The translations under genes were made by a program, and so were the position numbers. DNA of 44,508 nucleotides from a virus, in IMG/VR virus record IMGVR_UViG_3300034101_001689, positions 1 through 44,508 of that record; one strand, 5' to 3'. The notes under the pieces were generated by a model that made no database searches, was not told where the DNA came from, and was given only the letters and a program-made list of their open reading frames with translations. Shown one piece after another: positions 412 to 44,300 of the stretch. The first letter of the stretch is position 1, and every line of letters begins with the position of its first letter.

Positions 412-544
412 CCTGCGGCTTGACGTACATGTTGCGCGCCCGACGAAGGCCCGACTGGTGGACCTTGAGGTCGATGCGCCCGTACATCTCGGGGCTGATC
501 TCGCCCCCGTTGAACGACAGTTGCAGTGCGCGGGTGTTCGGCAT
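1..544 (-). CDS. Tail nozzle / stabilisation-type protein, N-terminal part
   Basis: This is the start of a 1,108-residue protein whose remainder lies at the right end of the window (41315-44097). The ATG at 544-542 overlaps the stop of the upstream gene as TGATG. The first residues read MPNTRALQLSFNGGEISPEM, followed by a segment ending NMYVKPQGSARRRPG. This LSFNGGE...SPEMYGR...RRPG pattern is the usual N-terminus of the large podoviral tail protein that follows the tail-tube adaptor, in the position of T7 gp12 (nozzle). Joining the two ends over the 411-bp redundancy preserves frame: 3,327 nt including the stop. The protein would sit at the distal end of the short tail and close the DNA channel. 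The family call rests on motif and gene order; the start is well supported. Confidence 0.85.
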   Translation of the reverse strand, partial: MPNTRALQLSFNGGEISPEMYGRIDLKVHQSGLRRARNMYVKPQGSARRRPGFRYCGEVFDSGSKTRLISLSSSPATVVEVSANKFRFYRDGAPLLRTGVPFFFATRTSVSAATGTGIWTSASIDQQGFGTNSLVTVIHPSVTTDPGYANPIVTDYPYARIAAITLTNVGEKTGIYQASAP

Positions 545-4452: not shown

Positions 4453-4470
4453 TGGAGTCTCCTTGCCTAC

Positions 4471-4509
4471 AAAAAGAAAGCCCCGCCGCACCACGCGGCA
4501 CGGCAGGGC
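4471..4509 (-). terminator. Rho-independent terminator after the capsid genes
   Basis: On the minus strand a GCCCTGCCG arm (4509-4501) and a CGGCGGGGC arm (4488-4480) form a GC-rich stem, with one G-T pair, around a 12-nt loop. A T-rich tail, TTTCTTTTT (4479-4471), follows. It lies 23 bp after the cement-protein stop and just before the esterase-adaptor gene, so it should reduce tail-gene transcription relative to capsid genes. Confidence 0.85.
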
Positions 4510-21935: not shown

Positions 21936-22760
21936 CTAGCCTTCTGCGGGCGTGTCTTGGTCCATCGGCTCCTGCTGCACCTCGACGCCGATCTTGGCGC
22001 GCAGGGCCTCCATCGGGCTGACCGGCGCGGCGGCGACGGGCGCGGTCGCCTGCTTGAAGTCGAACGTCTCGTCATCGGCCTCGGTGACAGCGTCGATGTC
22101 CGCGCTCGACGGCAGCCGCTTCATCAACCGGCGCAGCACCGTCTTGCGGGCCATCTCCTCGTACCACTGGACCCACGGGCCGCTATCGCGTGCCTTGCTG
22201 ACGTTGCGGATCTTCTCGATGTCCTCGACGGACATGACCTCGCGGTAGATGCCCCCGTCCCTGGTCTTGGCGACAGCGTAGGCGGCGATCACCAGCCCAC
22301 GCGGCCCGTCGAGGCGCGGCTTGTGGACGATCTTCTCATCGTCGCCAAGCTCGTACTCAAACTTGTCGTTCTCATGCGCGGTGTGCGCGCTGATCGACAG
22401 CAACTCGCCCGAGTTGCGGAGCTTTTTCAGCAGCCCGCCAATCATCGGCATGTACTGGACCTTCGGCCCCTCCTTGGTGCGGAAGATGACCGGCGCGGCT
22501 TCGCGCCCGTCCAGCAGCAGCCCGTCCTGCGCCGCCTTCATGGCGGTGGCGAACAAACTGCGCCGGTCGGCGTTCAGCAAGTCGGGGTTCATCTGCACCG
22601 TGGTCACCACAGTACGGACGAACTTCTGGACTGGAATCTGCGGCGGCAGGGCCACCGCGAACTCCTTGTCCATCGCCTTCAGCGTCTCGCGGAAGGCTTC
22701 GATCGGGGCAAGCTGGCGGGCCTGCGGGGGAACGGTCTGGGGAACGTCTGACACGGTCAC
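21936..22760 (-). CDS. recT: RecT-family single-strand annealing protein
   Basis: 274 residues from GTG 22760 (GTGA overlap with the exonuclease gene). Hallmarks: TTVQMNPDLLNADRRSLFAT then MKAAQDGLLLDGREA, VQYMPMIGGLLKKLRNSGEL, and WYEEMARKTVLRRLMKRLP near residue 205. RecT binds single-stranded DNA produced by the partner exonuclease and anneals it to homologous strands, supporting phage recombination and concatemer formation. The acidic C-terminus (DAVTEADDETFDFKQ and after) is typical. The pair with a YqaJ-type nuclease immediately upstream confirms the role. Confidence 0.93.
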   Translation of the reverse strand: MTVSDVPQTVPPQARQLAPIEAFRETLKAMDKEFAVALPPQIPVQKFVRTVVTTVQMNPDLLNADRRSLFATAMKAAQDGLLLDGREAAPVIFRTKEGPKVQYMPMIGGLLKKLRNSGELLSISAHTAHENDKFEYELGDDEKIVHKPRLDGPRGLVIAAYAVAKTRDGGIYREVMSVEDIEKIRNVSKARDSGPWVQWYEEMARKTVLRRLMKRLPSSADIDAVTEADDETFDFKQATAPVAAAPVSPMEALRAKIGVEVQQEPMDQDTPAEG

Positions 22761-23698
22761 TTCTCCTTCTTCGGGGTGAATCGGAACGAGCGGTAGCCCT
22801 TGCGGCCACCGATGGGCTGCCCGACCATTTCGGGCGTGATGAACTTCGGCGGCACGGCTTCTTGGTAGCCGCAGGAGATCGTCCCGCAGCGGCCAACGAC
22901 CTTGCCTGCTGACTGCGCCGCGTACAGCAGCTTGGCTTTCAGGCTGTCCACGGCTTCCTCGGCGGCGGACAGGCGGAGTTGCGCGTCGCGCAGCATCTCC
23001 ATGTCGGCTTCCATTGCGTCGGACGCCTTGACGATCTCGCCGCTGCTGCCGTTGCGCAGATGCGAACGGATGAACTCGCCGTCCTTGGCGTAGTCGGCCT
23101 TCGGCTCTTCGCCAGCGTCGATGCTGGCCCAGAAGGCGATCACCATAGCCTTGATGCTGTCGGCGACCTGCGGATCGGGCGTGCGCAGAAGCACCTTGCT
23201 GCTGTTGCCGCCGACCAGCGGGACGATGGCCCCCCACGACAAGCCCGACACCATCAGTTGCACCTGAAGCTGCAACTCGATATGGGGGGGTGCTTCGATC
23301 TGGTCGCCGATCTCGCTCCACTGGTCATCGAAAATGCGGCGATCGACGTTTTTGATCTCCATCAGGCCGAGCTTGCCGTCGTGCATCGCTTCCCAGTCGA
23401 AGGACGCGCCGAGCCGAAGCTCGGGCACGCGCTGGTAAATCTTGCGCGGCTGCGCAGTCCAGCCGTTGTCCTCGGCAACGCCTGCGGCGATGGCCGCTTC
23501 CAGGCGACGGCCCCAGCGCATGCGCTCGGTGTCGGGCTTGGCCTCGGCCATGGTCAGCCGCTTGCGGTGCCATAGCTCAAAACGCGAGGTGTACGGGGAC
23601 AGGCCGTAGAGAGCGGCGACCTCGGTGGAGGTCAGGTCACGGGCGCGGGCATCCAGCCACGCCTGCTCGTCGGTGATGTCGAAGTGTTCGCGGATCAT
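22757..23698 (-). CDS. YqaJ-type phage exonuclease
   Basis: 313 residues from ATG 23698 (GAGTAGG leader). The YqaJ/lambda-exonuclease core is visible: an N-terminal SRARDLTSTEVAALYGLSPY-like segment (here from residue 17), RMRWGRRLEAAIAAGV with Glu67, GASFDW with Asp101, LMEIKN with Glu114 and Lys116, and a HIELQLQVQLMVSG helix. These are the metal- and DNA-binding residues of the PD-(D/E)XK fold. It degrades one strand from double-strand ends and hands the other to RecT. A C-terminal extension of about 100 residues has an extra Cys pair (GRCGTISCG). Confidence 0.9.
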   Translation of the reverse strand: MIREHFDITDEQAWLDARARDLTSTEVAALYGLSPYTSRFELWHRKRLTMAEAKPDTERMRWGRRLEAAIAAGVAEDNGWTAQPRKIYQRVPELRLGASFDWEAMHDGKLGLMEIKNVDRRIFDDQWSEIGDQIEAPPHIELQLQVQLMVSGLSWGAIVPLVGGNSSKVLLRTPDPQVADSIKAMVIAFWASIDAGEEPKADYAKDGEFIRSHLRNGSSGEIVKASDAMEADMEMLRDAQLRLSAAEEAVDSLKAKLLYAAQSAGKVVGRCGTISCGYQEAVPPKFITPEMVGQPIGGRKGYRSFRFTPKKEK

Positions 23699-24461: not shown

Positions 24462-24670
24462 ACCACGCTCTCCTGCGGCATGGCAGACGCTTCGATCGCC
24501 GCGAGCCGGGCGATGCGAATGGCGTCGCTTGCCAGCGTCACGGCTACGCAAATGCGTCCAGCGGCGTCTCCACGATCGAAACTGCTTTTCAGATCGTTCG
24601 TGAGGATGTACGGCTCAACTTGGTTGAGGAACTCCTCGATGTCGCGCAGCTTCTTGGCAAGCTCTAGCAC
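24458..24670 (-). CDS. Small helical protein of unknown function
   Basis: 70 residues from GTG 24670, overlapping its upstream neighbour by 7 bases: MLELAKKLRDIEEFLNQVEP onward, with VAVTLASDAIRIARLAAIEA as a second helix. It probably forms a helical hairpin. It precedes the PP-loop gene with a GTGA overlap. No family recognised. Confidence 0.6.
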   Translation of the reverse strand: MLELAKKLRDIEEFLNQVEPYILTNDLKSSFDRGDAAGRICVAVTLASDAIRIARLAAIEASAMPQESVV

Positions 24671-25984: not shown

Positions 25985-26187
25985 TTCGCCCTCCCGATGT
26001 CGGTCGCCGCGATCTCCAGTTGCTTGAGCACGCGGTCGGCGATGAACGTCGGCATCGTCAGCACGGTCACGGCTGCGATGCCATCCGGCGTCGCGGCGTC
26101 GATGTCGATGCGCCCGACACCGCCAAATTTGGCTAGGTCGAGGCTGCGCATCACGGCGACGAGAAGGGCGTTGTCGGCGGTGCTCAC
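25981..26187 (-). CDS. Small accessory protein
   Basis: 68 residues from GTG 26187 (GTGA overlap): VSTADNALLVAVMRSLDLAK, then FGGVGRIDIDAATPDGIAAV and a helical end. Predicted alpha-beta. No family recognised. Part of the eight-gene overlapping accessory series between the helicase loader and rusA. Confidence 0.65.
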   Translation of the reverse strand: MSTADNALLVAVMRSLDLAKFGGVGRIDIDAATPDGIAAVTVLTMPTFIADRVLKQLEIAATDIGRAK

Positions 26188-26411
26188 TTCTTCCCCTTCG
26201 CCGCGAGCGCGGCTTCCCTTTCCATGACGTACATTGTGACCCCAGGCACAACGCGGGCAGTTAGCGCAGCCGCGAACTGCTCGGGAGTCAGCACGATCTC
26301 CCAGCATGTGATGGGATCACGCCTGGATTTCGCCTGGATTCGGTACTCGGTCGAGTTCGGCGACTCTCCCCTGACCACGACAACATCCACGGTGACCTGA
26401 GAGCGTTTCAC
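26184..26411 (-). CDS. Small accessory protein with AALAAK tail
   Basis: 75 residues from GTG 26411 (GTGA overlap): strands KRSQVTVDVVVVRGE and EYRIQAKSRRDPITCWEIVL, then a helix LTPEQFAAALTARV. It ends MEREAALAAKGKK, encoded by the 19-bp element shared with four neighbouring genes. Small alpha-beta protein, function unknown. Confidence 0.65.
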   Translation of the reverse strand: MKRSQVTVDVVVVRGESPNSTEYRIQAKSRRDPITCWEIVLTPEQFAAALTARVVPGVTMYVMEREAALAAKGKK

Positions 26412-26623
26412 TTCTTCCCCCTCGCCCTCTTGGGCTTGACCGGCTCGATGGTGACGGTGACGCGCTGAATCACCTCCGCGTCCTCCACATGGAGCCTCCG
26501 GATATCGGGAAGCCATTCCTTTGCGCTGCGTCGCGTCAGGAACAAGAGCGGTTCTGTTTCCGTTGACTGCAAGTCGCCGCGCTTTGAGAACAGGCCCCAC
26601 GCCTTGAACGTCTGCTTCTTCAT
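26408..26623 (-). CDS. Small basic accessory protein
   Basis: 71 residues from ATG 26623 (ATGA overlap): MKKQTFKAWGLFSKRGDLQS, then PLLFLTRRSAKEWLPDIRRL and strands VIQRVTVTIEP, ending KPKRARGKK. Small alpha-beta protein with a basic tail, resembling short phage proteins of unknown role. It lacks the AALAAK tail of its neighbours but ends in a similar GKK. Confidence 0.65.
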   Translation of the reverse strand: MKKQTFKAWGLFSKRGDLQSTETEPLLFLTRRSAKEWLPDIRRLHVEDAEVIQRVTVTIEPVKPKRARGKK

Positions 26624-26883
26624 GGCGTCTCCTTCGCCGCGAGCGCGGCCTTGAGTGCGTCGAACGACGCCACGGCTTCCCAGGTGTACACTTTGCGGGC
26701 GAAGTCGCGAGAGTTGGCCTCGATGGCGCGGAGCCGCTGCAACTCCGCGCGGGCAGCCAGAAGTTCGGCAGCGATCTTCCGGACCTCTGCCCACGACGGA
26801 TCGCCCGTGGCAGCGCAGACGGCCAAGGGTATCGGTTTGCCGGCGGCAATTTCTCTTAAACGTTCGTCGGTCAGGTTGGTCAC
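26620..26883 (-). CDS. Small accessory protein, RLRAIEA/AALAAK family member
   Basis: 87 residues from GTG 26883 (GTGA overlap). An N-terminal TDERLREIAAGKP and AEVRKIAAELLAARAELQ lead into QRLRAIEANSRDFARKVYTW and a final DALKAALAAKETP. The RLRAIEA and AALAAK strings recur in 27224-26880 and 27549-27349, so the three are paralogues with variable middles. Helical; function unknown. Confidence 0.68.
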   Translation of the reverse strand: MTNLTDERLREIAAGKPIPLAVCAATGDPSWAEVRKIAAELLAARAELQRLRAIEANSRDFARKVYTWEAVASFDALKAALAAKETP

Positions 26884-27224
26884 TTCCCGCCCTCCTTCGC
26901 CGCGAGCGCGGCCTTCATGGCTGCAAAGGTCTGCAAGGACTGCCCTGCATACTCTTCGCGATACTCTTTGCGGAGCAGATCACAGACACGCGCATGTTCG
27001 ACTGCCGCCGCCTCGATGGCGCGCAGCCGGTCGTACTCGGATGGCTGGGGCTTCAGCGAGTCGAGCGACACCCAGTTGCCGTTCTTCACCTGCTTCTCGC
27101 CGATCAGCGCACCAATGCCGAGGTTCAGTTCGGCGAGGCCGAGGTTCAGTGCGGCGAGTTGGTTGCGGATCTGCTTCAGCATGTCAGCGACGTATTCCAG
27201 GTACTCCGTGTCGATACTGCTCAC
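26880..27224 (-). CDS. Small accessory protein, RLRAIEA/AALAAK family member
   Basis: 114 residues from GTG 27224 (GTGA overlap with the 43-residue membrane gene). N-terminal coiled-coil-like part (EYLEYVADMLKQIRNQLAAL, then heptad LNLGLAELNLGIGALIGEKQ), then DRLRAIEAAAVEHARVCDLL and TFAAMKAALAAKEGGK. A longer frame from 27359 would read through the preceding gene and is rejected in favour of the GTGA start. Function unknown. Confidence 0.68.
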   Translation of the reverse strand: MSSIDTEYLEYVADMLKQIRNQLAALNLGLAELNLGIGALIGEKQVKNGNWVSLDSLKPQPSEYDRLRAIEAAAVEHARVCDLLRKEYREEYAGQSLQTFAAMKAALAAKEGGK

Positions 27225-27352
27225 TTCCCGTTCTCCTTCGCCGCGAGCGCGGCCAAGATGTAATACGCAAGTGCGGCCAAGGCCACGATTGACAGCAACC
27301 AATCCAAGCATCGGAGCCAAGGCGGCCAGGGGTTGCGGTAGTGGTCTTTCAC
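27221..27352 (-). CDS. 43-residue single-pass membrane protein
   Basis: The start is GTG 27352, overlapping the previous stop by GTGA; the stop overlaps the next GTG the same way. It begins VKDHYRNPWPPWLRCLDWLL and continues through a hydrophobic segment (SIVALAALAYYILAAL) to AAKENGK. The span at residues 16-36 is a clear membrane helix with a short N-terminal part. It shares the 19-bp 3' element with its neighbours. Too short to be found by size cut-offs, but exact overlaps on both sides support it. Function unknown. Confidence 0.72.
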   Translation of the reverse strand: MKDHYRNPWPPWLRCLDWLLSIVALAALAYYILAALAAKENGK

Positions 27353-27549
27353 GGTGCATCCTTCGCCGCGAGCGCGGCTTGCAGCTTGGCGAACAACAGC
27401 GGCGCAGGCGTCTCGTCGGCGCGTTCCGGCGTCAGGTCGCAGTAGGCCCTCGCCGCCGCCTCGATGGCGCGGAGCCGCTGAATCTCCTCAAGCGCAGTCA
27501 GGCACTTGAGGCTTTCCCCGGCCTGCTTCGGGTCAGTAATCACGTTCAT
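27349..27549 (-). CDS. Small accessory protein, RLRAIEA/AALAAK family member
   Basis: 66 residues from ATG 27549, overlapping the helicase-loader stop (ATGA) and preceded by a strong AGGAGGAAAG. It reads MNVITDPKQAGESLKCLTAL, EIQRLRAIEAAARAYCDL and ends FAKLQAALAAKDAP. First of the eight overlapping small genes; its strong ribosome site may feed translation of the whole series. Helical; function unknown. Confidence 0.7.
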   Translation of the reverse strand: MNVITDPKQAGESLKCLTALEEIQRLRAIEAAARAYCDLTPERADETPAPLLFAKLQAALAAKDAP

Positions 27550-29489: not shown

Positions 29490-29506
29490 CGTCAAGCGGA
29501 TTCTCA
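29490..29506 (-). promoter_or_regulatory. CCGCTTGACGC element, copy at the end of the giant gene
   Basis: Minus strand GAGAATCCGCTTGACGC starts at the giant gene's stop codon. TTGACG could act as a -35 with TACTAC (29472-29467) after 17 bases, but any transcript would at once meet the terminator at 29388-29416. The near-identity with 29030-29046 across a 460-bp gap suggests a regulatory or recombination role. Confidence 0.35.
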
Positions 29507-32500
29507 CCGCTGGCGCAGACCCTCCGCCGGGGAGCCGGTCATGATCGCCCGCGCCGCGTCCACCACGCCGTAGGTCGGCTGCTCGCCGGTCATCACGTTC
29601 ACGCCCATCGCCAGCTTGTTGAAGGTCTGGCTCACCGGCAGGCCAGCCACCAGATCGAACAGCACCAGAGCGTCACGGATCTTGCGGTTGGTTACGTCCT
29701 TGTCCTCGCTCGCCACCGCCGCGATCAGGTCGTACTGGCCGTCCACCATCTTCTGAAGCGCGCCGATCGCCGGGTTGCTCAACATCCGGTCGTTGTAGGT
29801 CACATCGTCCAGCCGGTTGATCGTCGCCGCAGCGACCATTTGGCCGCCGATCGGGATCATGCTCAGGCCCTGACCGACCAAGCCCTTCAGCATGATGTCG
29901 CCAGCCTCGTCCCAGTAGCCATCGTCATCTTCGTCATCCATCTTGCCGCTCATGGCGTCAGCGATGATCGAAGCCACCACGCCGGGTGCCGCGTAGCCCA
30001 TCATCGCAGTGTAGAACAGCGGCCACTTGTTGCCCTTGAACCCTTCCTGCTTGAGCTTCAAGAACTCCGTCCTGTTCAGGTTGTAGAGCATGTTGAAGTA
30101 GCTGGTGAACTGCGTGAACAGGCGCAACAACTCGCTTCCAGACTCTGCCGAACTGATCGCTTCAGGCTGCGTGCTGCCTTGCGTCAGATTCACCGCCGCA
30201 TCGGCGCGGGCCACGGCTTCCGCCTCCCACTGCGCTTCGCTTATTCCTTCCGGCCTAGCCGCCATGGCCTGCTCGTAGGCTCCACCCCAGATGACGAAGT
30301 CCATCATGTTCTGCACCGTCGCCTGGAAGATGTAGGCGTTCTTCTTGGCAAACTGCTTGACCTTGTCGAACTTGCTGGGGTTCAACAGGACTTCGTTCAT
30401 CTCCTCTTGCAGCACGAAGATTTGGCTGCGCGTGCGCTGGTCCATGAACTTGGCTTTGCCTACCACCCACTCGACATACCCCTTGCGGTCACTGCCGAAG
30501 CGACGAGCCGAGCCGATCAGGTAGCTCGCCTTGACCTTGAGCAGCGCGGGGAAGACACCTGTGAGCTGCTGCAACGTGTTGGAGATGTTGCCGAACATCA
30601 CCATCATGCCTGAGCGGTTGCGCAGCATGCGGATGTACCGATCTCTGGTCGGGTTGTTGCTGCCGATCCCAGTGCGCTGCGATGCCGCACGCGACAGCCA
30701 CGGGTAGATCACCTCGTTCAGCGCGTTGGGGTCGATCGAGTTGATGGCCGCCTTGATGTCCTCGTTCTTCAGCAGGCGAGCAACCGACCACAGTGCGGGC
30801 TGGACATGCACGAAGCGCATCGTGTGCTCGATGTGCTGCGCGATGCGCGAGATGTCCATGTCCAGAGGCTTCTGGTAGCCCTCGTAGCGAGCGATCGTGA
30901 AGCCCCAGCCCGTGGTGGGCATCGAGTCCTTGAACTCCTGATCGACGTTGGCGACCGCAGACGGGTCTGCAAAATTGGTCACCAACTCACGGTCAACCTT
31001 CGCCGGGACGTATCCGCCAGCGTAGGTCTTCGTCGTGCCGTCCTTGAACTTGAGCACGAAGCTGCGCGCTGGAACCTCATCGAAGAACTCGCCCCACTTC
31101 ATGCGGTAGATCCGCTGGATGTCGGGCTTCAGTTCGGCGGTCAGGTTCCACACCTCCTGCACGGCATCGACATGTTCTTGGGTGAGAACGCCGTCTTCGA
31201 TCATCTCGCGGATCGCCTGCCATGCCCGAGACTCGTCAACCTCTCCCGTCTCTTGGTTGACCGTGCCCCACTCGTAGAACTTGCCGCGACCGGCAGCGAT
31301 CATCTTGGATGCGTTGCTCTGGTTGCCCAGGTGCATCAAGAAGCCAAGGATCTCCGCCGTGTCGGTGAAGGTGTATTTCAGTGCCTTGCTGGTGTACGGC
31401 ACCCACTTCAGGCTGGGGCCTACCTTGTCCAAGATGGCGTTGAACTTCTTGTGGAAGGCGTCGCGCTTGGAGCGGTAGTCCAAGATGGCGTTCTGCACCG
31501 GACGCCAGAACAGGCGCGTGAACACCCCAGGTTCCTTGCCGTCCCACTCATCGAACATCGACTGAGCGCGGCGCATCTTCGCCGCCATCGTGCGAAAGAA
31601 CGCAACTGCGCTCTCGAAAGGGGTCGCCCGCTGCGTCTGCCCAGGACTCGGCCCTTCCTTTGCCAGCTTGGCGGCGCGCTCTTGGATCTGATTCTTGGCG
31701 TCTTCGACCAAGATGCGGTTCTCGCCAAGCACGACCTCCTTGTCATCCTTGGCGTACTGCCACAGTTCCATGACCACAGACCGCAGGCGGCGGAACTCCT
31801 CGACGGTCAAGTCCTTGAAGTCCTTCTTGTTGGCCGTCGCCTCGGAAATGATCCGGTTGATCTCTGCGTACTTCTCCGGCTCGTACTGCTGGAGCTTGCG
31901 CAAGAAGTCGTTGGCCGTCTCCGCAGCGCGCCGGATCTGAGCCTTCGTGCCGACGCCGTACAGAGCGAGTACCGCACGCGCCGCGATGATGTAGTCGAGC
32001 GACCTGTCCTTGCGGTTCTTGTTCTTGAGGATGCGGGCGAACATGCGCCGCGCCGCGCTGACCTCAACGCGGACGTTCTCCGCTTCGTTCGCCATCTGAT
32101 CGCTCAACAACTGCTGCCGCTTGCTGCCAAGCGCGCCAGCCAAGTCGTTGTCCGTCAGCTTCTGCAACGCCTCGCGGCTGTGGCGACGGGACGCGACCAC
32201 ATGCAGGTCAGGCCGTAGCTCGCTGATCTTCTTCTTCTGCGTCGCCATGCGAGCCGCCGCACGCGCCGCACTCAGCATGATGCGCGGTGGCAACTTGCCT
32301 TCTGCTTGCCTTTGCCGCACCTTCAGGTCCGAACGGATGGCGTTGACGCGCTCCTCGGCGCGAGCGATCAAGCCCTGATCCTTGGAGTCTTTGGCTGCAC
32401 GCAGCTTCTGCTCGGCCTCGCTCAGGTCGTTTTTAAGGTCGATGACCTCCCGTTCGGCCTCCTGCTGTTGCTGCAAGTCGGCGGGCCGGTTGGCACCGCC

Positions 32501-35500
32501 AAGTGTCGCCTTCTCCAGCGCGCCGAGTTCCATCATCAGCCAGCGCGTGTTGAACTCGTTCAGCAACGAGGCGTTGACTGCCTCCTCGACTTGGTTCTGC
32601 GTAACCAGATCGCTGTTCTCGGCCAGCATCTTGGCGTCGAGGATGGACGCGATGGCGTCTTCCTTCGACGGCGAGGTCAGCAGATCGTTCAGCACTGCCT
32701 CGGCGTTCTCGTAGCCGAAGTAGTCGCGCAACAAGTGCAACGTCACGCCGTTCTCGGCCATCATCGACGCCAGCGGGTGCGCGTCGCGGGCGTCCTTCTT
32801 CTGCTTCGCCACAGCCTCCAGCCCGCCGCGCTGCGCCGCCTTCGCCGCCGACAACGACTTGCTGGCTTCCTCAAGCTGGGCGCGGACCTTCTGGTTGGCC
32901 GCCTTGATGCGGGCCTTTTCTTGCGCGTAAGCAATGCTCGCCTTGCGATGCTCTTCTCTGGCAGCGTCGTAGGCCGCACGCTCCGTGGTCCCGGCAGGCG
33001 GCAGCGGCTTGGGCTTGACCGGCTTGACCGGCTCAACCGGCAACTCCTCGATCGCCAGCCCTTCGGCAATCCGCTGCTCGGCTTCCGCCGCCGCAACGGC
33101 ATCGTCCAGCGGCTGCATGATCTCGGACGCCTTCACCGCGTCCAAGGCGAAGCTGTCGATCGACAGCTTGTGGTTCTTCACCTTCTCGGGTGACACCGTG
33201 CCGTCCTCGCCAACCATCTCGCCAGTCTGCAAGAAGCGACGCAGCCGCTCGACGCGAGTGCGCTCGACCGAGTTGGCCACCTCCTCGTACATGCCTTCGC
33301 GGATGGCGTCCGCCAGCTTCTTCATCGCGGACAGCCGGTCGTGATGGTTGCGCGTCAGCCACGCCAAACTCCGCAAGCCCTTCTGCGTCAGGCCAGCAAC
33401 CGCCTGCTCGATGCGCAACCGCTCGATGGACTGGTAGTCCTCCCAGTCATCGGCGTTGCCGCCGTACTGCACCCACTGCTCCTTCGACAAGAACAGCGGA
33501 ACCGCAGCCTTCGTCGCTTCGGCCATGCGGATCTGGTCCTGCGCGGCGACCATGCGCTTGAAGACCTCCTTCACCTCGGGCGTGATGCCGGGGAGATCCT
33601 TGCCGCCTGACTCGATCTTGTACGTCTCGTTGATCGCCGTGAGCGTCTTCCAAGTGTTGACGAAGAACTCTCGGATGCGACCGAAGATCGGCAGCAGCGA
33701 TTCGCTAGGCAGATCGCCGTTGAACAACCACGCCTCCCACGAATAGGCCACCGCTTCGTGAATCTCAATCTGCTTCTCCACCGGCATTGCGGCGTACTCG
33801 TCAAAGCCGCCTTCCAGCTTGCCGAGATCACGCGCCAGCGTGTCCATGTCCTTGCGCATCTGATCCGACGCCAAGCCCTGCTGGATCAGCGTGGCGTAGC
33901 TGTCGAACATGAAGTGCATCAGTTCGTGGAAGTACGTCGTGGGCTGGGCGTTCTGGTTCAGGACCGTCTGGCGGGCCATGCGGTCGTAGGTGCCGCCAAC
34001 GCCCGTGTCGGGCTGCTGGCTGTACAGAATGCTTTCCTTCGTCTGGTCGAACCGCTGCGACAGCGGGATGACGTTGCCTTGGGCGTCGCGGGTTACGGGG
34101 TCGGCCAGCTTCGCCTGCCGTGGCGCAAACACGATAAATGAGTCGCCAGTGCCCTCGGCCTCGTTTTTGTAAACAACTCCATCGTACCCCTTGCTTATCA
34201 ATAGTTCGCGCAATGCGGCATTGTTGTCTGATGCGTTAAAGACGCTTTCGTACTCACTCTCCGAGATGCTGACGCCCGCCTTCCTCGCTTCCCGCATTAC
34301 AGACTGGTAGCCCCAGGTGCCAAGATCAGGCAGTCTAAGCGGCTTGCGAAGGTCTACAAAAAACGGAAATGCATCACCAAACATCTCGGCTTGTCCTTGA
34401 TTGCCGAGATGAACACCAAGCTCCTTTCCGTCGCTTGGAAAGTTGAATACGTCAAACTCTAGTTGCCTAACAGGACGAGAACGTGTCTTACGCCGCAGTT
34501 TTTGCAGAGATTCTTCAAGGCTGCGCGCTCTGGTGGCAACTTCTTGGGTAATCCCCTGCTGATTTGCATCATCTGGAAAATACTCAAGCTGCCGCTCCAG
34601 CATGTACGCCACATCTTCAGCAAAACCAAACTTTGCTCCAATATCTCGTAACTCTTGGAATAGTTGTTGCTCCTTATCTCCAGCAGAAGAAGAAACAGCC
34701 TCCACTACGTCGGTAGTTGCGGCAGTTCCGTGCCACAGCTTTCGCTTGTAACCCGCCCTCTTCGCCGCCTCATCCACCATCCGCTGCGCCGTCTCCATGT
34801 CCCCCCGCGCCACAGCCGCAAGGTAGTCGGCGTCCATCTGCGCAGCGGTGGCGGGGAGGCGGGAAAACAAAAACTTGCTCTTAGGCGCAACCACCGCGTT
34901 CTTCGCAAGCACCATCGACCCGATCTGCACAACCATCTCAGCCGACTGCAACGGCTCGCCTGTGGCGCGGTCAAAAAAGTAGCTGTGCAGCTTTGGATTG
35001 AAGCCGACCTGCCGCCATTGGGGGTCGGTTATCGCCTGCTCGGCAAGCGCATGAGCCTCCTCCGCCGTCATGGGCTTCATCTTGCCCTTGACGATGGCGG
35101 CGATGTCCTTGTTCTCAAGCTCTTGTGCGATGCGGAACACAAGCTGCTCACGCGCAGCAAACTCAACTTCGGTCACGACTGCGGCGTTGGTGAAGCCGAT
35201 GACTTTCCCCGCCGTTGCTCCCTTTCCAGCCTTGTGGATAGTCACCACATCCACGTTTTTGCGCTGCTTGGCAGGAATGTCTAGCCGAAGACCGACGTAC
35301 TGGCCTTCTGGGATGTCGGTCGGTGCGATGACACGATCTCTCTGGCTGCTTTTCAGGGCGTCGGTCATCTGCTCTGGCGTCGAAAGTGCAGGGACCGCTT
35401 GCGCAAGACGCACCTTGCCAAGTTTGTTGACCAAGGCATCCCACTGTTCTCGCGTGATCTTGCCTGCGGCAAGTGCGCGAGCACCGTCCTTCAGTTGCGT

Positions 35501-38074
35501 GATGTTCTCGGGCGCGAGAACCGCTTGAAGTTGTTGCTCTACCTGCTTCTTTGCGCGGCCCGGCTTGACGGGCGCAACTTCTGGGACGGAGGGAAGCTGC
35601 TCTTGAGCCATCGGGGCAGCTTCCGGTTGCTGCTCAAGCTGCACTGATTCCTCGACCATCTTCCCCACTTCCTGCGGCGTGGGCAGAGAGATGTCGCCTT
35701 CAGTGGTTTGCGCAGCCTGTGCCGTTTCGGCTTCCGCCACGAACGCCTCCAGCACCCCCCGCTCCTGCTCCGTCATCTCCTGCGGTGGGATGGCGAGCAG
35801 TTCCTTGGCTTGGGCGACGGGCTGGACGGCTGGCTGCGCGGGAGCAACCTGTGGTTCGGCAGCAGCCATCTCCTGCGTCGGCTGCTGAGATTGCTCGCTT
35901 CGCTCATACATCCAATCGATCAACAGTCTTAGTTCTTCCTCTGTCAGAGTCTCTTTCAACTGCGACGCCTGGGTGCTCATCACGGTGGCGTCTGATGGGG
36001 CCATCTCCTGCGTCGGCTGCGCCTGCGCGGGAGCCGCCATCTGGCTCAACCCCGCCGGGGGCTGCACAACCACCGGCTTCACCACAAACTTGCCGAGCAC
36101 GCGGGACGCCTCGATGGCGTTCTCGCTCATCGGGACGCCCGCTCGGGTGCTCATGCCGTACACGCGCTCAAAGTCGGCCAGCGAAATCGGAGGCTTGTTT
36201 TGCGCCTTCAACGTCGCGTTGACCTCGGCGTTCATCAACGCCATCACCTGGGCGTACAGGTGCCCGCCGATGCGTGCCTCTTGGAACGAGCGACCCGCCG
36301 CTTGGATCTGCTTTGTCTGGTTCTCGCGGATGGCGCGTAGCTCGTCGCGGAACTGCTTGTCCGCCTTCGCCTTCTCGCTCAGGTTGTTCTGAACCGTCTG
36401 CGCCATCGCCTTGATGTTCGGCTCAAACTTGGCCGCCTCGGCCTCGCTCATGCCGTTCTTGTCGATGCGGATGTGCGGCATCAGCTTCGACTGCATCTCG
36501 GTGTTGCGCAGGTTGACCTGAAGATCCTCCGTCTTGATGACGATGGCGTCTTGGTCGGTCGTGGCATCCACAAGCTGCTTGTGAACCGCTGGCAGCAGTT
36601 CTTGCAGCATCTCGATGGCCGACTTCTGCACCTTGCCTTCTGCCGTCGCCTGCTCGTCGATGCCGCCAAGCAGTGAGCGCAAGTCGGCGGCGGTGACGTA
36701 GACCTCGCTGACGCCCTTGGCTTCGGCGGAGAACTGGCGGGCAAGCTCTGGGTTGCGCTCGGCCAGCTTGCTGTTGGCCGCGCCCGTGGAGATTGCCTTG
36801 ATGGTGGCCGTGTCCTGCTGCGCCTGCTCGACGCGCCGGGCATCTGCCGCAGCGTTCGCAAGCGGGCCGGGAAGGCCCAGCACCAACATGCTGTAGAAGG
36901 TCTTGGAGGCGATCTCCCCGATCTGGTCGTAGATTTGCTGGCGGCCCTCGGGCGTGCTGTACCGCTGCTCAAGCTCGGGGCGGCTGACGGTCATGCCCCA
37001 CTCTTGGCCCACGATCTGGCTGATCTCCTGCCCAATCTCGGTGGCGATCTCGCCGCCAAGGCCCTTGATGTAGCTCTCCGCGAACCCGGCAGCGACGGTC
37101 TGCTTTCCGATCGGCTTGAACACCTTGGGGGCGAGGCGAGGGCCGACCTTGGCCGCCGCTGCCGTGAACGGCTTGAGCGCGTACTTGCCCAGGACCGTCT
37201 CCAGCGCGCCGTTGATGACGCCCACGATGGACGCAGCCCTCTTGGCCTCCACCTCGCCCATGCCCGCCTGGATGTAGTCCAGGTAGGCGTTGCCGCCCTC
37301 GATGATCGCCGTCTGCGCGCCCTGTGCCCCCAGGAAGCCAGCCGTGAACAGCGTGCCCGAACTGATCGGGGCAGCCGGGCCAGCGATCAAGCCGGGCGCA
37401 GCCATGGTCGCTCCAGCCGCCAGGGCGACCGGCATCGTCTCCGACATCTGCCCGACCATCTCCGCCGTCCCGCCCGTGATCGAGTCCCACACCCCTTCCA
37501 GCGGCGGGACTGCCCCGATCGCGCTGTCGATCTGCGACAGCCGGTCACGCAGCAGGCGGGCGTCCCCGATGCCCGACGCAAGCTGCGCGCCGATGTAGCC
37601 GCGCTCGACCATGTATCGGCCCTTCGTGAAGTTGCCGATCTTCTCGATCTGCTGAAGGTGTCCGATATCGTCGTATGCCTGGGCGACGAAGTTGAAGTCA
37701 CGCATCCGCTGCGCGACCAGCGGGTACTTTTCGTCAAACGCTTGGTTCTCGACCTCGCGCTGGCGGGCGAACTGCTCCGCGATCTTCCAGTCCTGCGTCG
37801 TGTCGGCGGGGTCGATGCCTAGCTGCTGGGCAATCTGGACCTTGCGCGCCTCCATGTCGGGGTCGCCAGCTACGGCCTGCTGGAACCGCTCCTGCTGGAC
37901 GCGACGCTGCTCTTGGATCTGATTCTGAGCGTCAAGCAGGGCCAAGGTGGCTAGCTGCTCCGATCTGTCCACCTGTGGCGTCGGCACCGCCGGGATGGGG
38001 GTCAGCGGCGGCGGGGTGACGGGCTTCGGGTCTTGGAAGCCAGACGCCAAGTCGGTGGGGAGTTCCATGGTCAC
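29504..38074 (-). CDS. Giant polyvalent ejection protein with ADP-ribosyltransferase and metallopeptidase motifs
   Basis: 2,856 residues from GTG 38074 (GTGA overlap); ATG 38068 is an alternative. Order of parts: Pro-rich start; hydrophobic stretch about 205-250 (PVALAAGATMAAPGLIAGPA); long helical and Gln/Pro-rich linker; ADP-ribosyltransferase-like domain about 1105-1317 with LWHGT (1113-1117), LGVHLGNQGQAEMF, KPLRLPDLGTW and KGYDGVVYKNEAEGTGDS; zinc peptidase motif HELMH (1383-1387); very long helical region with a Pro/Lys linker near 1680; C-terminal part with FTSYFNMLYNLNR (about 2650) and hydrophobic helices GYAAPGVVASIIADAM and GLVGQGLSMIPIGGQMVAAA. This fits the polyvalent proteins of phages, injected with DNA and acting in the new host. 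It stands where T7 gp16 would. No transglycosylase motif found. Confidence 0.85.
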   Translation of the reverse strand: MTMELPTDLASGFQDPKPVTPPPLTPIPAVPTPQVDRSEQLATLALLDAQNQIQEQRRVQQERFQQAVAGDPDMEARKVQIAQQLGIDPADTTQDWKIAEQFARQREVENQAFDEKYPLVAQRMRDFNFVAQAYDDIGHLQQIEKIGNFTKGRYMVERGYIGAQLASGIGDARLLRDRLSQIDSAIGAVPPLEGVWDSITGGTAEMVGQMSETMPVALAAGATMAAPGLIAGPAAPISSGTLFTAGFLGAQGAQTAIIEGGNAYLDYIQAGMGEVEAKRAASIVGVINGALETVLGKYALKPFTAAAAKVGPRLAPKVFKPIGKQTVAAGFAESYIKGLGGEIATEIGQEISQIVGQEWGMTVSRPELEQRYSTPEGRQQIYDQIGEIASKTFYSMLVLGLPGPLANAAADARRVEQAQQDTATIKAISTGAANSKLAERNPELARQFSAEAKGVSEVYVTAADLRSLLGGIDEQATAEGKVQKSAIEMLQELLPAVHKQLVDATTDQDAIVIKTEDLQVNLRNTEMQSKLMPHIRIDKNGMSEAEAAKFEPNIKAMAQTVQNNLSEKAKADKQFRDELRAIRENQTKQIQAAGRSFQEARIGGHLYAQVMALMNAEVNATLKAQNKPPISLADFERVYGMSTRAGVPMSENAIEASRVLGKFVVKPVVVQPPAGLSQMAAPAQAQPTQEMAPSDATVMSTQASQLKETLTEEELRLLIDWMYERSEQSQQPTQEMAAAEPQVAPAQPAVQPVAQAKELLAIPPQEMTEQERGVLEAFVAEAETAQAAQTTEGDISLPTPQEVGKMVEESVQLEQQPEAAPMAQEQLPSVPEVAPVKPGRAKKQVEQQLQAVLAPENITQLKDGARALAAGKITREQWDALVNKLGKVRLAQAVPALSTPEQMTDALKSSQRDRVIAPTDIPEGQYVGLRLDIPAKQRKNVDVVTIHKAGKGATAGKVIGFTNAAVVTEVEFAAREQLVFRIAQELENKDIAAIVKGKMKPMTAEEAHALAEQAITDPQWRQVGFNPKLHSYFFDRATGEPLQSAEMVVQIGSMVLAKNAVVAPKSKFLFSRLPATAAQMDADYLAAVARGDMETAQRMVDEAAKRAGYKRKLWHGTAATTDVVEAVSSSAGDKEQQLFQELRDIGAKFGFAEDVAYMLERQLEYFPDDANQQGITQEVATRARSLEESLQKLRRKTRSRPVRQLEFDVFNFPSDGKELGVHLGNQGQAEMFGDAFPFFVDLRKPLRLPDLGTWGYQSVMREARKAGVSISESEYESVFNASDNNAALRELLISKGYDGVVYKNEAEGTGDSFIVFAPRQAKLADPVTRDAQGNVIPLSQRFDQTKESILYSQQPDTGVGGTYDRMARQTVLNQNAQPTTYFHELMHFMFDSYATLIQQGLASDQMRKDMDTLARDLGKLEGGFDEYAAMPVEKQIEIHEAVAYSWEAWLFNGDLPSESLLPIFGRIREFFVNTWKTLTAINETYKIESGGKDLPGITPEVKEVFKRMVAAQDQIRMAEATKAAVPLFLSKEQWVQYGGNADDWEDYQSIERLRIEQAVAGLTQKGLRSLAWLTRNHHDRLSAMKKLADAIREGMYEEVANSVERTRVERLRRFLQTGEMVGEDGTVSPEKVKNHKLSIDSFALDAVKASEIMQPLDDAVAAAEAEQRIAEGLAIEELPVEPVKPVKPKPLPPAGTTERAAYDAAREEHRKASIAYAQEKARIKAANQKVRAQLEEASKSLSAAKAAQRGGLEAVAKQKKDARDAHPLASMMAENGVTLHLLRDYFGYENAEAVLNDLLTSPSKEDAIASILDAKMLAENSDLVTQNQVEEAVNASLLNEFNTRWLMMELGALEKATLGGANRPADLQQQQEAEREVIDLKNDLSEAEQKLRAAKDSKDQGLIARAEERVNAIRSDLKVRQRQAEGKLPPRIMLSAARAAARMATQKKKISELRPDLHVVASRRHSREALQKLTDNDLAGALGSKRQQLLSDQMANEAENVRVEVSAARRMFARILKNKNRKDRSLDYIIAARAVLALYGVGTKAQIRRAAETANDFLRKLQQYEPEKYAEINRIISEATANKKDFKDLTVEEFRRLRSVVMELWQYAKDDKEVVLGENRILVEDAKNQIQERAAKLAKEGPSPGQTQRATPFESAVAFFRTMAAKMRRAQSMFDEWDGKEPGVFTRLFWRPVQNAILDYRSKRDAFHKKFNAILDKVGPSLKWVPYTSKALKYTFTDTAEILGFLMHLGNQSNASKMIAAGRGKFYEWGTVNQETGEVDESRAWQAIREMIEDGVLTQEHVDAVQEVWNLTAELKPDIQRIYRMKWGEFFDEVPARSFVLKFKDGTTKTYAGGYVPAKVDRELVTNFADPSAVANVDQEFKDSMPTTGWGFTIARYEGYQKPLDMDISRIAQHIEHTMRFVHVQPALWSVARLLKNEDIKAAINSIDPNALNEVIYPWLSRAASQRTGIGSNNPTRDRYIRMLRNRSGMMVMFGNISNTLQQLTGVFPALLKVKASYLIGSARRFGSDRKGYVEWVVGKAKFMDQRTRSQIFVLQEEMNEVLLNPSKFDKVKQFAKKNAYIFQATVQNMMDFVIWGGAYEQAMAARPEGISEAQWEAEAVARADAAVNLTQGSTQPEAISSAESGSELLRLFTQFTSYFNMLYNLNRTEFLKLKQEGFKGNKWPLFYTAMMGYAAPGVVASIIADAMSGKMDDEDDDGYWDEAGDIMLKGLVGQGLSMIPIGGQMVAAATINRLDDVTYNDRMLSNPAIGALQKMVDGQYDLIAAVASEDKDVTNRKIRDALVLFDLVAGLPVSQTFNKLAMGVNVMTGEQPTYGVVDAARAIMTGSPAEGLRQR

Positions 38075-40626
38075 TTCATGCTATCTCGACGCTGCTGCAA
38101 AGCCTCCTTCAGACGGGAGGCTTCCTCTTCCTTCTGCGCCTTGCGGTTGGCGGCGGCTTGCTCTCCCAGTTGCTTCCTTAGCGCGGCTCGCTCTTGCGGA
38201 AACCGCGATTCGGCTTCTGACATAATCCGCTGCATTTCAGGCGACCAAAACGCCTGCGTAGGAGCATTAGCCGCTTGCCGCTCTGCCGCTTGCTTCTCCT
38301 GCGCCCGAGCCAAAGCTCTCCAACCTTCGGCGGAAAGCTCTGTCACAGTTGGCTGGTAAAGCTCGCGGCGCACTGCCTCGGTAGCCGCACGCTTCTTGGC
38401 CGCCCCAAGAACAGAATCGTCAAACGATTCGGCAGGGCCGAACGCGCCTTCCGCAATGGCTTGCTGCGTGTACGCATCCAGCATCGCTTGCAGGTTTTCT
38501 TGCGAAGGGATTACATCGCCCATGTAGGTGCGAACAAGCTGCCGGATGTTCGTGCGCGAAGCCGCATCGCTGACTTGGTTAGCTGCCGCCGCATCTACCT
38601 TCTGCCGTGCCTGAGCCTGCTTGAACGTGTTCTCGCTGTCGATGGCGGAGATCCGAAGGTACTCGCGGATCAGGGTGTCTGCCCCGCCTCCCATGCGAGT
38701 TGCGTCTTCGCCTGACAGGTTGGAATCTTTGAGCGCACGGTCAAGCGTGTCGATCTTCTCCTGCATCTGTGGAGATGGCGACTGCCTGTACGCCTCACGA
38801 TACTTGGCAAGCGACTTCTCGGCAGTGCTGATTATCTCGGCGCGCTTCGCAACGTCGCCGGTCCACTCGCCAAGAGTCAGCGTGACCGATCTGCCAGTCG
38901 AGCCAACGGGCTGCTCCCACTTGGTGACGCCACGCTCCTCTGGCGTCTGCACCTCGTAGACCAACGGAGCCAGCCAAGAGTTGACCAGCTTGCCCTCCAT
39001 GTTGCGGGAGGCCAGCGAAACCGACACTCCCTTGGAAGCGGCTTGCGCGTTGACGTAATCCGAGATGGCTTTGCGGTCGTTCTTGTCGATGCCAGCCGCC
39101 GTCAACTCGCTCTCCAGCTTGAGTTGAGCGCGCAGCCAGAAGTCCATCTTTGCTGGGTTGCCTGGGTTCTTGTCCTTCTTCTCCCAAGCCGGGTCGTAAG
39201 GCTCACCAACCAGCTTGCCGATCAGGTTGTTGAAGTATGCCTCGTCGGCGACTATTTTGACCACATCGCCTGCGCGCCCGCGACTGCTCGGGCTTTGGCC
39301 CCTTGGGTCGATGCCGTTGGCCTGGATGAACGACGCCTCGACCTTCTGAAGATCCTGCGCGGACAAGTTGGGCGAAAGCTGGGCCGACACCTCCAGCCAC
39401 TTCTTGGCGACATTGCCGTCCTCCGCCTTCAGCTTCTGCGGGCTGGAAAGGTACTCCATCATCCGCGCTTCACCTTGGCGGGTGGTCAGGCGGCCACGGT
39501 TCGACCAGTACGACTGGGCCTCGTCGTACATGCCAAGGTCTTGCAACTGGGTCACAAGCGCGGCGTTGCTCGTCTCCCATGCGCCCCAGTCTTGGCTGCC
39601 GGAGATGGCACCGCGCAGCGAGTCTTCGTACTGCCTGCGAAGCTCGCCCTTCTGCTCGTCCTCGGCGTAGCGGTTGATGTTGAACCGCTCGGTCAGCTTG
39701 CCAACGGTCGCCTTGTATTCCTCCTCGTCGATGCCGCCGAAAACGCGCAGGTTGTCCAGCGTTTCAATCTGGGTCATCAAGTCCTTCGGAAACGCCGTCA
39801 TCAGTTGCTGCGACGAACTGAACGCGATGTCATCGACGTTCATGGAGCGTATAGCCTTGTCGATCTTGCCGCGCTCCGCCGCCGGGATGCTGCTGCCGTG
39901 CTGCTTGTAGTAGTCCCGCGCCATCTGCCGCGATGCCGGGTCTTGGCTTTCCGCCAGCGACGCCAGCACGTTCACATGCATCTGCGTCCTGACGCCTTCC
40001 TCTGCCTGCTTCCACATCGGGCTTCCGGGCTGGACGCCCTGCGCCTGCATGATGGAGGCCACGTTGCGCATCGCGTCCTTGTAGAACGGGCTTTCCTCCA
40101 TCGTCTGGATCGTGCCGGAACTGCTGAAGCTGTCGGTGTAGTCCGACACGTTCGCATCCAGCGCAGCCTTCGATTGGCCGATCTCGTAGGCCGTGCTCTG
40201 CCCCACGAAGTGGTCATCGACCTGGGCGGAGAAATGCATGTTGCGGAACCCGGCACGCTGCTCGAAAGCCTCGCGCTGCCACTGGTTGTCCAGCCCGTCC
40301 GCAAGCTCCTTCTGCTTGCGCTGGATGTCCTGCATCAACTGGGTGCGCGCCTGAATGGCGTCGTAACCCTTCTTGTTCCGGTAATCCGAAACGGCGGCGC
40401 GGCTGAACTCGGAGAACTCGGTGTCCGCCGACCGGGCGCGGGAGTCGTTGATCCGGTCTTGGACGCGCAACATGCCTGCGCCTGCCTGCTCCAAGCCCTG
40501 CCCAAGCTGGGCAGCACCTTGCCCGGCCAAGTTCTGAGCCGGGACCACCTGACCGGCTTGGAACTGGGGCATCGCCCCGGCGTTGACGCTGACGGACGGG
40601 AGATCGACCTGGGGGACTCTGACCAT
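38071..40626 (-). CDS. Internal virion (ejection) protein, gp15-like position
   Basis: 851 residues from ATG 40626 (TAATG overlap). It opens MVRVPQVDLPSVSVNAGAMP and continues with a Gln/Gly/Ala amphipathic stretch (GQGAAQLGQGLEQAGAGMLR) typical of the second internal core protein of podoviruses. Most of the sequence is alpha-helical and charged, ending in a long Glu/Lys/Arg/Gln-rich helix (QLGEQAAANRKAQKEEEASR). With the small upstream and giant downstream proteins it would form the ejectosome that carries DNA across the cell envelope. Assigned by order, size and composition; sequence similarity to T7 gp15 is not directly visible. Confidence 0.75.
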   Translation of the reverse strand: MVRVPQVDLPSVSVNAGAMPQFQAGQVVPAQNLAGQGAAQLGQGLEQAGAGMLRVQDRINDSRARSADTEFSEFSRAAVSDYRNKKGYDAIQARTQLMQDIQRKQKELADGLDNQWQREAFEQRAGFRNMHFSAQVDDHFVGQSTAYEIGQSKAALDANVSDYTDSFSSSGTIQTMEESPFYKDAMRNVASIMQAQGVQPGSPMWKQAEEGVRTQMHVNVLASLAESQDPASRQMARDYYKQHGSSIPAAERGKIDKAIRSMNVDDIAFSSSQQLMTAFPKDLMTQIETLDNLRVFGGIDEEEYKATVGKLTERFNINRYAEDEQKGELRRQYEDSLRGAISGSQDWGAWETSNAALVTQLQDLGMYDEAQSYWSNRGRLTTRQGEARMMEYLSSPQKLKAEDGNVAKKWLEVSAQLSPNLSAQDLQKVEASFIQANGIDPRGQSPSSRGRAGDVVKIVADEAYFNNLIGKLVGEPYDPAWEKKDKNPGNPAKMDFWLRAQLKLESELTAAGIDKNDRKAISDYVNAQAASKGVSVSLASRNMEGKLVNSWLAPLVYEVQTPEERGVTKWEQPVGSTGRSVTLTLGEWTGDVAKRAEIISTAEKSLAKYREAYRQSPSPQMQEKIDTLDRALKDSNLSGEDATRMGGGADTLIREYLRISAIDSENTFKQAQARQKVDAAAANQVSDAASRTNIRQLVRTYMGDVIPSQENLQAMLDAYTQQAIAEGAFGPAESFDDSVLGAAKKRAATEAVRRELYQPTVTELSAEGWRALARAQEKQAAERQAANAPTQAFWSPEMQRIMSEAESRFPQERAALRKQLGEQAAANRKAQKEEEASRLKEALQQRRDSMK

Positions 40627-41314: not shown

Positions 41315-44300
41315 TTAGCTCCCTACAGCGACTTCAAGGACGAGGCCATTCACATTGAGCGGAAACGGCGCAGTCTGGCGAACCAGAACCGATCCGTCCT
41401 GCGTCCAAGATGGCAGCAGCGTGGTCTGAATCTCGTCGCCCACAAGGGCCGCATCCAGAGTGACCGAAGGGACAAGATTGCTCTCATCAGGGCCGATTTC
41501 AAACGGGTCGGTTGAGTCGAGGCGGAACCACGCCTTGTTGATGTTCTTGGTGCGCCCCTGCCCTGCGGCGTCCGCCTGCAAGGCGATCGGTAGCGTCTGC
41601 ATCTCAGCGACGTAGCCAATACCGATGGCCCCGAACACGGCGTGCGACTCCAGCGTGATCGAGCCGCTGGCAGGCACCACTTGGTCGGCAAGCCGCTCGC
41701 CGTCAGCGACGATCTGCACTGTCTCCCCGACGAGGTGGCCAAGGCCGCTGTAGGTCCGTCGCGCAAAAGCCCACGACGATATGGCCGTCTCCCAGAACGC
41801 CGAAGGGATGTCGGCAACGGCCCGCCCGCGAACGACCGACGCCGAGACGTACTCGCTGATCTCAACGGTCGCCCGGCTGCCGTCCGTAGCGGTCAGCACA
41901 AGGCGGCTGCCGACATCGCCAACCGCGAAGACGCTGTGCGCGCCGACCACCGACACCGTGACCGTCGAACCAAGACCGAAGCCGCTGCTCTGGTACTGGC
42001 TGATCTGAAGCTGGCGGTTGCCGGTGTGCGTGTTGTCGAAGGTCAGGTAGCTGTCCACGAACACGCCTTCGTCGCCCGTTACGCGCAGATCGTCCAACGC
42101 CTCGACGTACCGCTTAGTGACTCCGTTAATGGTCCGCTTCACGACCGCGTACAGAACGTCCTTGTCGCCTTCCAAGATGCAAGCCACGGACTCAAGCGCG
42201 CCGTCCGTTTCGTGCTGGTGCCACGCCGCGACTTGCTCCTCGGGCGTGTAGGTCAGACCAAGCAGCTTCCCGTTGCTGCTGACGAACCAGAGAACGGGGA
42301 TGGGCGATCGCATCTGCGCCAAGTCCACCAGGGACAAGTCCTCAAACAGATGCGACGCCCGCAGGCTCAGGTCGGTTCCGACGTAGCCCTGCGAGTTGAA
42401 ACTGAAGCCAAGCTCGCGCACGCGACCGCCACGGCTGGCGCAGTAGACCACGCTGTTGTTGACGATGACCGGCGTGACGTAGTTGCTGCCAACGAACGAC
42501 TGCGGGCGCACGCTGACCGTGCTTGGCGTGATCGCGTCGCTGTTGATCGCCGTGATGCGCCACTCGGCCAGATCCGTCAGCACCAGCAACTCGCTCGCGC
42601 TCACAACATGCCGGATGCGGTTGATCTCGCGGGTGGCGACTTGAATGGAGATGCGGTCGCTGTCCTTGATCGGCAGCGTGAAGCTCAGGTCCGTCTCGGT
42701 GTTTGCCTTGGTCATCCACAGGCGGCTTGGCTTTGCGCTTGTGCCAGCGAACACCTTGCGCTGGTCCCAGTACGACACGCAGGACGGGTACTCCCCTGCC
42801 TGCGCAAGCGAGTCATCGGGAATCGGCGGCGTGATTCCAATGTCGGCTGGAAGGTTGTTGTCCACGAACTTCAGGCCGCTGTTGTTGTCAGCCTTCCCGA
42901 TCAGGCCGTACAAGCCGCTCTGCAAGCGGTAGATGCGGTACTGCACCGCGTTGGTGACTGGCGACCAAGTGATCGTATTGAACGTCTCACGGGCGAACAG
43001 GTTGTTCGTCACCGAGATAGGCGCGCTGGCACGGCTCTCGACATCGGTATCGTCAACGGCGGTGATGACGTACAGGTTGGTCGAGGTCGAGTCCTCGGGC
43101 CAGAACTGGAAGAACACAGGGGAGGCGAAGGTGCTGCCGCCAGTTCCGACCACTAGCTGGTCGCCGATGTTGGCCACTTGGGCAGCGGCTCGGTTGGTCT
43201 GCCCGTTTGCCTTCAGCACAAACTGGATGTTCTGCGTGCCGCTCTGAACAACGCTGTTGGCCACGCTGAAGATGTTGTTGTTGAGCTTGGCCGCAAGCCC
43301 GGTAGGCATGCCGGCGACCTGAGTGACCGGGCCGAACTTCACGCTGTCGCCAGCGACGATGGACAACCCCTGCCAGTCGCACTGCAACAGGCCAATGCCG
43401 CTTGAGTCCGTGGTGCGCGTGATTCGCAACGACTCGCCAGTCGAGGCCGTAGTTGTGAACGAATCTGGCGGCAGCAGCTTGGCCGCGAACGACACCGACC
43501 GAACGTCCCACCGCGTGTCGGAGTAGCGAAGAAGATCCGTGGTTGGGTGGCTACGGTGAGCCAGCGTCAGAACGTCGTTGCTCTGCGCGTAGGTCAACTC
43601 GAAAAGCTGCTGCTCCGTGTAGGCTTTCCCGTGCGTGATGGTGACTTCGGGAGCCGGGCCTTCGTTCGTCCAGTATTGAGTCGCAGTAAGCAAATAGTCG
43701 CTGCGCGCAGGGATCTTGGCCCGGTAGTAGTCGGGGCTGCTGAACACCGTCTCGCCCGTGGCATAGATTGCCATGAGGCTGCTGCCGCTGCCGTTCGTCA
43801 GGTACGTCGTGATGGGTACCCCGTCGATCGTGCGCTTGAGTCTCCAAGTCGTGCTGGACAGGCGGTCGATGTAGTAGCACGCGCCTGGGTACTCTGGAGA
43901 CGATGGGGTAACGATCGAATGCAGCGTGCCGTTTTGCGTGCCGTTGTTGAGGTTCCACGCAACAATTGTCATCAGCCGCGCTGTGCCCTGATACCCAGTG
44001 CGGAAAGCAAAGTTCGTGCTGTCGATGCGCTCGATGTAGAACAGGTAGCGGTTGCCTCCTTGCTGCAACGTCACCGCATCGTTGTCGCGCAGGTTGTGCG
44101 GTGCGCTCGCTTGGTAGATGCCTGTCTTTTCGCCAACGTTGGTCAGCGTGATCGTTGCGATTCGGGCGTAAGGGTAGTCCGTAACGATTGGGTTTGCGTA
44201 CCCAGGATCGGTGGTGACCGACGGGTGAGTGACTGTCACCAGCGAGTTCGTCCCGAACCCCTGCTGGTCGATCGACGCGCTCGTCCAGATGCCGGTGCCG

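Follow-up and report, generated by a model that had tools for sequence, protein, structure and literature searches.

Polyvalent proteins of phages unite unrelated predicted activities with an LPD domain in a single polypeptide, and the ADP-ribosyltransferase (ART) and MPTase domains are among their commonest components (Iyer et al. 2017, PMC5512222). In N4-like phages a giant virion RNA polymerase (vRNAP) is itself an ejection protein (PMC10925440); in N4 and DEV it carries an HExxH domain, is encoded together with the other ejection proteins and is injected (PMC10925440, PMC5512222). A similar idea is found in T4 Alt and the MuF-ART fusions, in which a head-packaged ADP-ribosyltransferase acts at entry. 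Here we analyse the 44,508-nucleotide IMG/VR virus record IMGVR_UViG_3300034101_001689 ('the window' in the following means this entire stretch), in which one open reading frame (ORF) of 2,856 residues, running on the minus strand from position 38,074 to 29,504, combines LPD22, ART-PolyVal, a gp82-like module and an HExxH motif in one polypeptide. It does so in the position of an ejection protein of a podovirus, which bears out the polyvalent-protein reading of a first-pass annotation of this DNA. This kind of protein is known already; what looks new is a fixed payload slot with resolved, repeated cassette swaps within a podovirus family. In our judgement it is fairly probable that the ORF encodes an entry protein of the family of BPP-1 Bbp10, in which a fixed frame holds a single slot for interchangeable payloads, and which would be packaged, enter the cell, be cleaved and there set an ART to work, with RecE/RecT-type functions exchanging the payloads.

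That the frame is a real gene and not a chance one, as had been claimed before with no mention of its strand, follows from the match of residues 1926-2851 (the C-terminal ~930 residues) to phrog_9880 (E=6e-215). Its GTG start codon shares nucleotides with the stop of the gene upstream; two codons further on there is an ATG. The protein belongs to the Bbp10 family, with profile similarity across the N-terminal part, the zincin-like metallopeptidase ('zincin') region and the C-terminal part. Relatives are present in 34 phage records, a backbone scan of viral contigs yielded at least 525, and bacterial genomes contain 64 loci, mostly in Pseudomonadota and many of them in Burkholderiales; a close prophage relative was sought in these genomes and not found, only distant ones, again mostly in Pseudomonadota, and an NCBIfam search of the protein gave no match. 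Common to the members are an N-terminal part of ~600 residues with LPD22, the zincin region and a C-terminal part of ~1,280 residues. Other representatives of this family (phrog_9880), such as those of Limnohabitans phage DC33 and Pseudomonas phage AF (gp16), are alike in this backbone and in the placement of the gene after an endolysin-like gene, as in the window. The slot is what differs: in Bbp10 it holds a PBECR1 nuclease in 204 residues, whereas here a gp82-like module and an ART occupy 751 residues.

In alignments of close relatives, a separate, exchangeable slot stands out between the N-terminal part and the zincin. One relative, L007, aligns collinearly with the window (93-97% identity over most of 27 kb) and lacks the ART by a clean, in-frame absence with flanks that are 97% identical; the other sizeable places where the two do not align are a linker in the giant gene and, at about 26-27 kb, a region of small genes. 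This latter region, variable between the window and L007, contains several copies of a repeat around CTCCTTCGCCGCGAGCGCGGC (26183-27397). In L006 and L009, by comparison, the backbone protein is ~50% identical to that of the window and the ART is the same at ~99% DNA identity, i.e. with 6 differences in 687 nucleotides, of which 5 are synonymous and 1 is non-synonymous. L008, with a backbone 95-97% identical, has a different ART that replaces both the gp82-like module and the window's ART, and L010 carries yet another ART in the slot. A protein in which ART and protease are fixed parts was considered and rejected on the comparisons with L007 and L009. Judged by these alignments, the protein acquired its ART recently, as an exchangeable cassette that has passed between phages, a property invisible to the first-pass annotation. 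The gp82-like module in front of it, named after Mycobacterium phage L5, lies in a region that has counterparts, at 31-33% identity, in the Roseobacter phages CRP-9 and CRP-207.

The same kind of exchange is seen across the family. A set of 74 non-redundant proteins contains 98 pairs whose backbones beyond the slot are at least 70% identical. Of these pairs, not all of them mutually independent, 47 differ in the slot by more than 100 residues in length or by a shared content below 70%, and some pairs with backbones 95-98% identical have almost no slot content in common. Slots range in length from 61 to 1,821 residues. When 52 of them were scanned, ART-PolyVal was found in 37 (E<=1e-3), a share that is inflated because some loci had been fetched with an ART as query, and PBECR5 and GNAT families were found in three each; PBECR1 (Bbp10 itself), RES and LPD37 occurred once each. 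Mosaicism of polyvalent proteins has been exemplified with Helicobacter (pro)phages in a paper whose main text does not mention BPP-1 (PMC5512222); here, in contrast, the swaps are resolved between backbones that are 95-98% identical, and at one fixed slot.

The first-pass annotation had proposed to check the protein by hidden Markov model searches against polyvalent domain families and by structure prediction. The searches matched LPD22 (PF18834) and, exactly where an ART-like domain had been claimed, ART-PolyVal (PF18760), the latter when residues 1073-1345 were taken as an isolated fragment (E=5.6e-5, 24.4 bits, which is below the curated Pfam cut-off of 31.2 bits). The cassette in the same slot of L010 scores above this cut-off (E=1.6e-9, 39.1 bits), and one in MW202722 reaches E=1e-19. 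The histidine of strand 1 (H1115) is invariant in all 26 cassettes that were aligned; D1311 is consistent with the acidic position of strand 5, where many cassettes have an aligned Asp. The core of the ART has a GC content of 50.0% in a genome of 63.3% and is the lowest stretch of that length in it; the cassettes of L008, L009 and L010 likewise have 48-50% GC.

The assignment of the adjoining zincin, likewise made from sequence, is firmer than that of the ART. A single HExxH motif, HELMH at residues 1383-1387 as noted before, is invariant in all 73 homologues, and of two downstream glutamates in a predicted helix, E1440 is present in 72 and E1447 in 71 of them. The zincin profile matches Bbp10 with E=7e-69, in a region that has been published as the zincin family CLCA_X (PMC3650047). 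In one member, L153, the ART profile matches upstream of the HExxH part of the zincin and once more downstream of it (residues 1183-1274), which suggests a second insertion point in some members.

The cassettes have conserved borders and variable cores, and these same borders are also present in giant proteins with an unrelated backbone. With these borders, the low GC content of the cassettes and the RecE- and RecT-like genes of the window, annealing recombination across the borders is therefore a reasonable mechanism for the swaps, by inference. A phosphoadenosine-phosphosulfate-reductase-like gene (23700-24551, minus strand; phrog_424, E=2e-34) adjoins these genes.

What the giant protein might do is suggested by its place in the genome. 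The late block ends with genes for a nozzle-like protein, a 228-residue internal virion protein, an 851-residue endolysin-like protein and the giant ORF, and this order is matched in BPP-1, Pseudomonas phage AF and epsilon15, the epsilon15 proteins being smaller. The giant gene closes the late operon, as stated in the first-pass annotation, and is followed on the same strand by replication genes, first an O-like and then a DnaC-like one. As the last and largest gene of the ejection-protein group, it resembles the T7/P22 gp16 core protein; the claim that it replaces a gp16-type protein thus holds for position, but not for homology, since T7 gp16 gave a best E of 0.04 and P22 gp16 no match, and the endolysin/transglycosylase-like protein is a separate gene upstream. 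A weak match to epsilon15 gp16 (E=6e-5), which falls in an Ala/Gly-rich stretch, was set aside. The membrane-active stretches described earlier come down to two 19-mers, at residues 214 and 2686, that barely exceed a Kyte-Doolittle mean of 1.4.

Gene position and the N4/DEV precedent make it probable that the giant protein is packaged and goes in together with the other ejection proteins, much as the virion polymerase passes into the cell at infection. The zincin, next to the payload, would then cut the chain and free the payload, as in the model for polyvalent proteins (PMC5512222), and the ART could, directly upon entry, modify a host or defence target. If cassettes are replaced by RecE/RecT-type annealing across the conserved borders, payloads could change while the entry machinery stays constant. 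The parallels have their limits. The vRNAP of N4 (gp50) has its HExxH motif as HELVH at residue 2228, but it gave no match with the backbone profiles, and the T7-like RNA polymerase domain of N4 and DEV was not detected here in a Pfam search. T4 Alt and the MuF-ART fusions belong to a different ART clade (PMC5512222), and Alt, unlike the ART here, is not built into an exchangeable multidomain protein.

Several observations weigh against this reading, beginning with the ART score below the curated cut-off. Where the second strand of the H-Y-D site should provide a tyrosine, the window has His1222, and Y, F and H all occur among the cassettes. The AlphaFold model of the ART, built with 26 cassettes, is too poor to use (predicted local distance difference test, pLDDT, 57) and had no significant fold match in the PDB; the ART assignment therefore rests on sequence, and its activity is uncertain. 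The zincin model is better (pLDDT 83) and also had no significant match, its best-probability hit being a lethal-factor zincin (probability 0.63, E=1.2), and nothing credible came up when PDB sequences were searched with profiles from the ART and zincin alignments. Papers on BPP-1, OANV1 and phiGT1 yielded no virion evidence for the giant protein. Finally, a search of viral contigs turned up no other copy of the exact junction between backbone and cassette.

The altered tyrosine position could mean that the ART module has degenerated into a passenger that is swapped through general phage mosaicism and plays no enzymatic role, in a protein that only helps DNA across the envelope; such a view would also accommodate L007, which does without the module, and the T7-type core proteins, which do not need a domain of this kind. 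We think this unlikely, as it sits badly with the invariant strand-1 histidine, with the 5 : 1 ratio of synonymous to non-synonymous differences between near-identical ART copies, and with slots that hold mainly predicted enzymes rather than random sequence. Another explanation places the action of the zincin, which the ART adjoins, in the producing cell: only part of the protein would be packaged, as for P1 DdrB, which is cleaved before packaging (Iyer et al. 2017, PMC5512222), and the ART may act late in that cell, e.g. in superinfection exclusion. The same paper describes the N4 vRNAP, in which such a domain is also present, as packaged without processing (PMC5512222), and with the gene sitting among those for ejection proteins we rate this as less likely still. 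The singular upstream junction, taken together with the ~99% identity of the ART to the L006/L009 copy, leaves a small residual chance that the ART join of this record is a chimera of two co-occurring phages produced in metagenome assembly. An artefact at this one join seems very improbable, because the window's upstream border is not that of L009 and resembles the one in L008, which is a third assembly and combines the same backbone with a different ART, because the reading frame is intact across both joins, at 34863 and 34016, and because many independent contig pairs have a like pattern; this swap pattern across many contigs is independent of the window's own junction. We therefore retain the entry protein with an exchangeable payload as the preferred reading.

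Table 1. Features of the giant ORF and associated genes in the window.
Feature	Position	Strand	Remarks
Giant polyvalent/ejection-position protein, Bbp10 family, 2,856 residues	29504..38074	-	
Conserved N-terminal backbone, residues 1-606	36257..38074	-	
LPD22 domain (PF18834), residues 61-148	37631..37894	-	E=1.6e-9
Variable payload slot, residues 607-1357	34004..36256	-	between N-terminal backbone and zincin
Phage_L5_gp82-like module (PF25735), residues 948-1051	34922..35233	-	kept in L007, absent from L008/L009/L010
ART-PolyVal cassette, residues 1073-1345	34040..34858	-	putative active-site H1115, H1222, D1311
Upstream conserved cassette border, DADYLAAV.RGDMETAQRMVDEAAK.AGY, residues 1073-1111	34742..34858	-	
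ART core, residues 1117-1318	34121..34726	-	50% GC
Downstream conserved cassette border, K.ADPVTRD..GNVIPLS.RF, residues 1319-1352	34019..34120	-	
Zincin-like metallopeptidase domain, residues 1358-1572	33359..34003	-	
HExxH motif HELMH, residues 1383-1387	33914..33928	-	candidate third ligand E1440 or E1447
Conserved C-terminal backbone, residues 1573-2854	29513..33358	-	
Endolysin/transglycosylase-like ejection-operon protein, 851 residues	38071..40626	-	phrog_10475; weak phmmer match to epsilon15 gp15
Internal virion protein, T7 gp14-like, 228 residues	40626..41312	-	phrog_418 E=4e-12
RecE-like exonuclease	22757..23698	-	candidate cassette-exchange machinery
ORF with RecT-like annealing protein in C-terminal part (residues 200-426)	21936..23321	-	

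The ends of the contig share an overlap of 411 bp at 99%, which is consistent with a complete, circularly closing assembly, and its major capsid protein belongs to the epsilon15 gp7 family. Side observations concern other virion genes of the window, all on the minus strand. The nozzle/tail protein (41315-44467) has 1,050 residues against a profile of 712 positions, a difference in length that suggests a large insertion. In the close relative L008, the endolysin-like protein (38071-40626 in the window) has a different, longer C-terminal part (1,030 residues), for which no Pfam match was found, and this gene may thus contain a second variable region. A 1,316-residue ORF (544-4494) contains a SASA domain of the sialic-acid-esterase type (residues 915-1102, E=1.8e-12) followed by a tail protein match (phrog_394, residues 1111-1316, E=7e-37), in what appears to be the fusion of a carbohydrate esterase with a tail component.

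Taken further, and only tentatively, since we hold this wider view to be slightly less probable than its opposite, Bbp10-family podoviruses may have a system of exchangeable payloads: an entry protein equipped with a protease and a single dedicated slot would draw on a shared pool of enzyme cassettes, mostly ARTs but also nucleases and acetyltransferases, which recombination at the conserved borders would carry from one phage to another, distant one, such that related phages would use the same machinery to deliver different host- or defence-modifying enzymes. ARTs have been reported to be encoded by only ~3% of podoviruses (PMC9503650), a figure on which the 37 of 52 slots with an ART bear, in a sample that is ART-enriched.

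Polyvalent proteins have been widely predicted and little tested, and the targets of their ARTs are a standing question. Near-isogenic natural pairs, i.e. phages with the same backbone with and without an ART, or with different ARTs, exist in this family, and payload function thus becomes testable by comparing infection by phages that differ mostly in their payload. Should the slot prove to be a genuine site of delivery, its contents would catalogue effectors of early infection that host defences have selected, and the entry protein would in principle offer a natural route for bringing proteins into bacteria.

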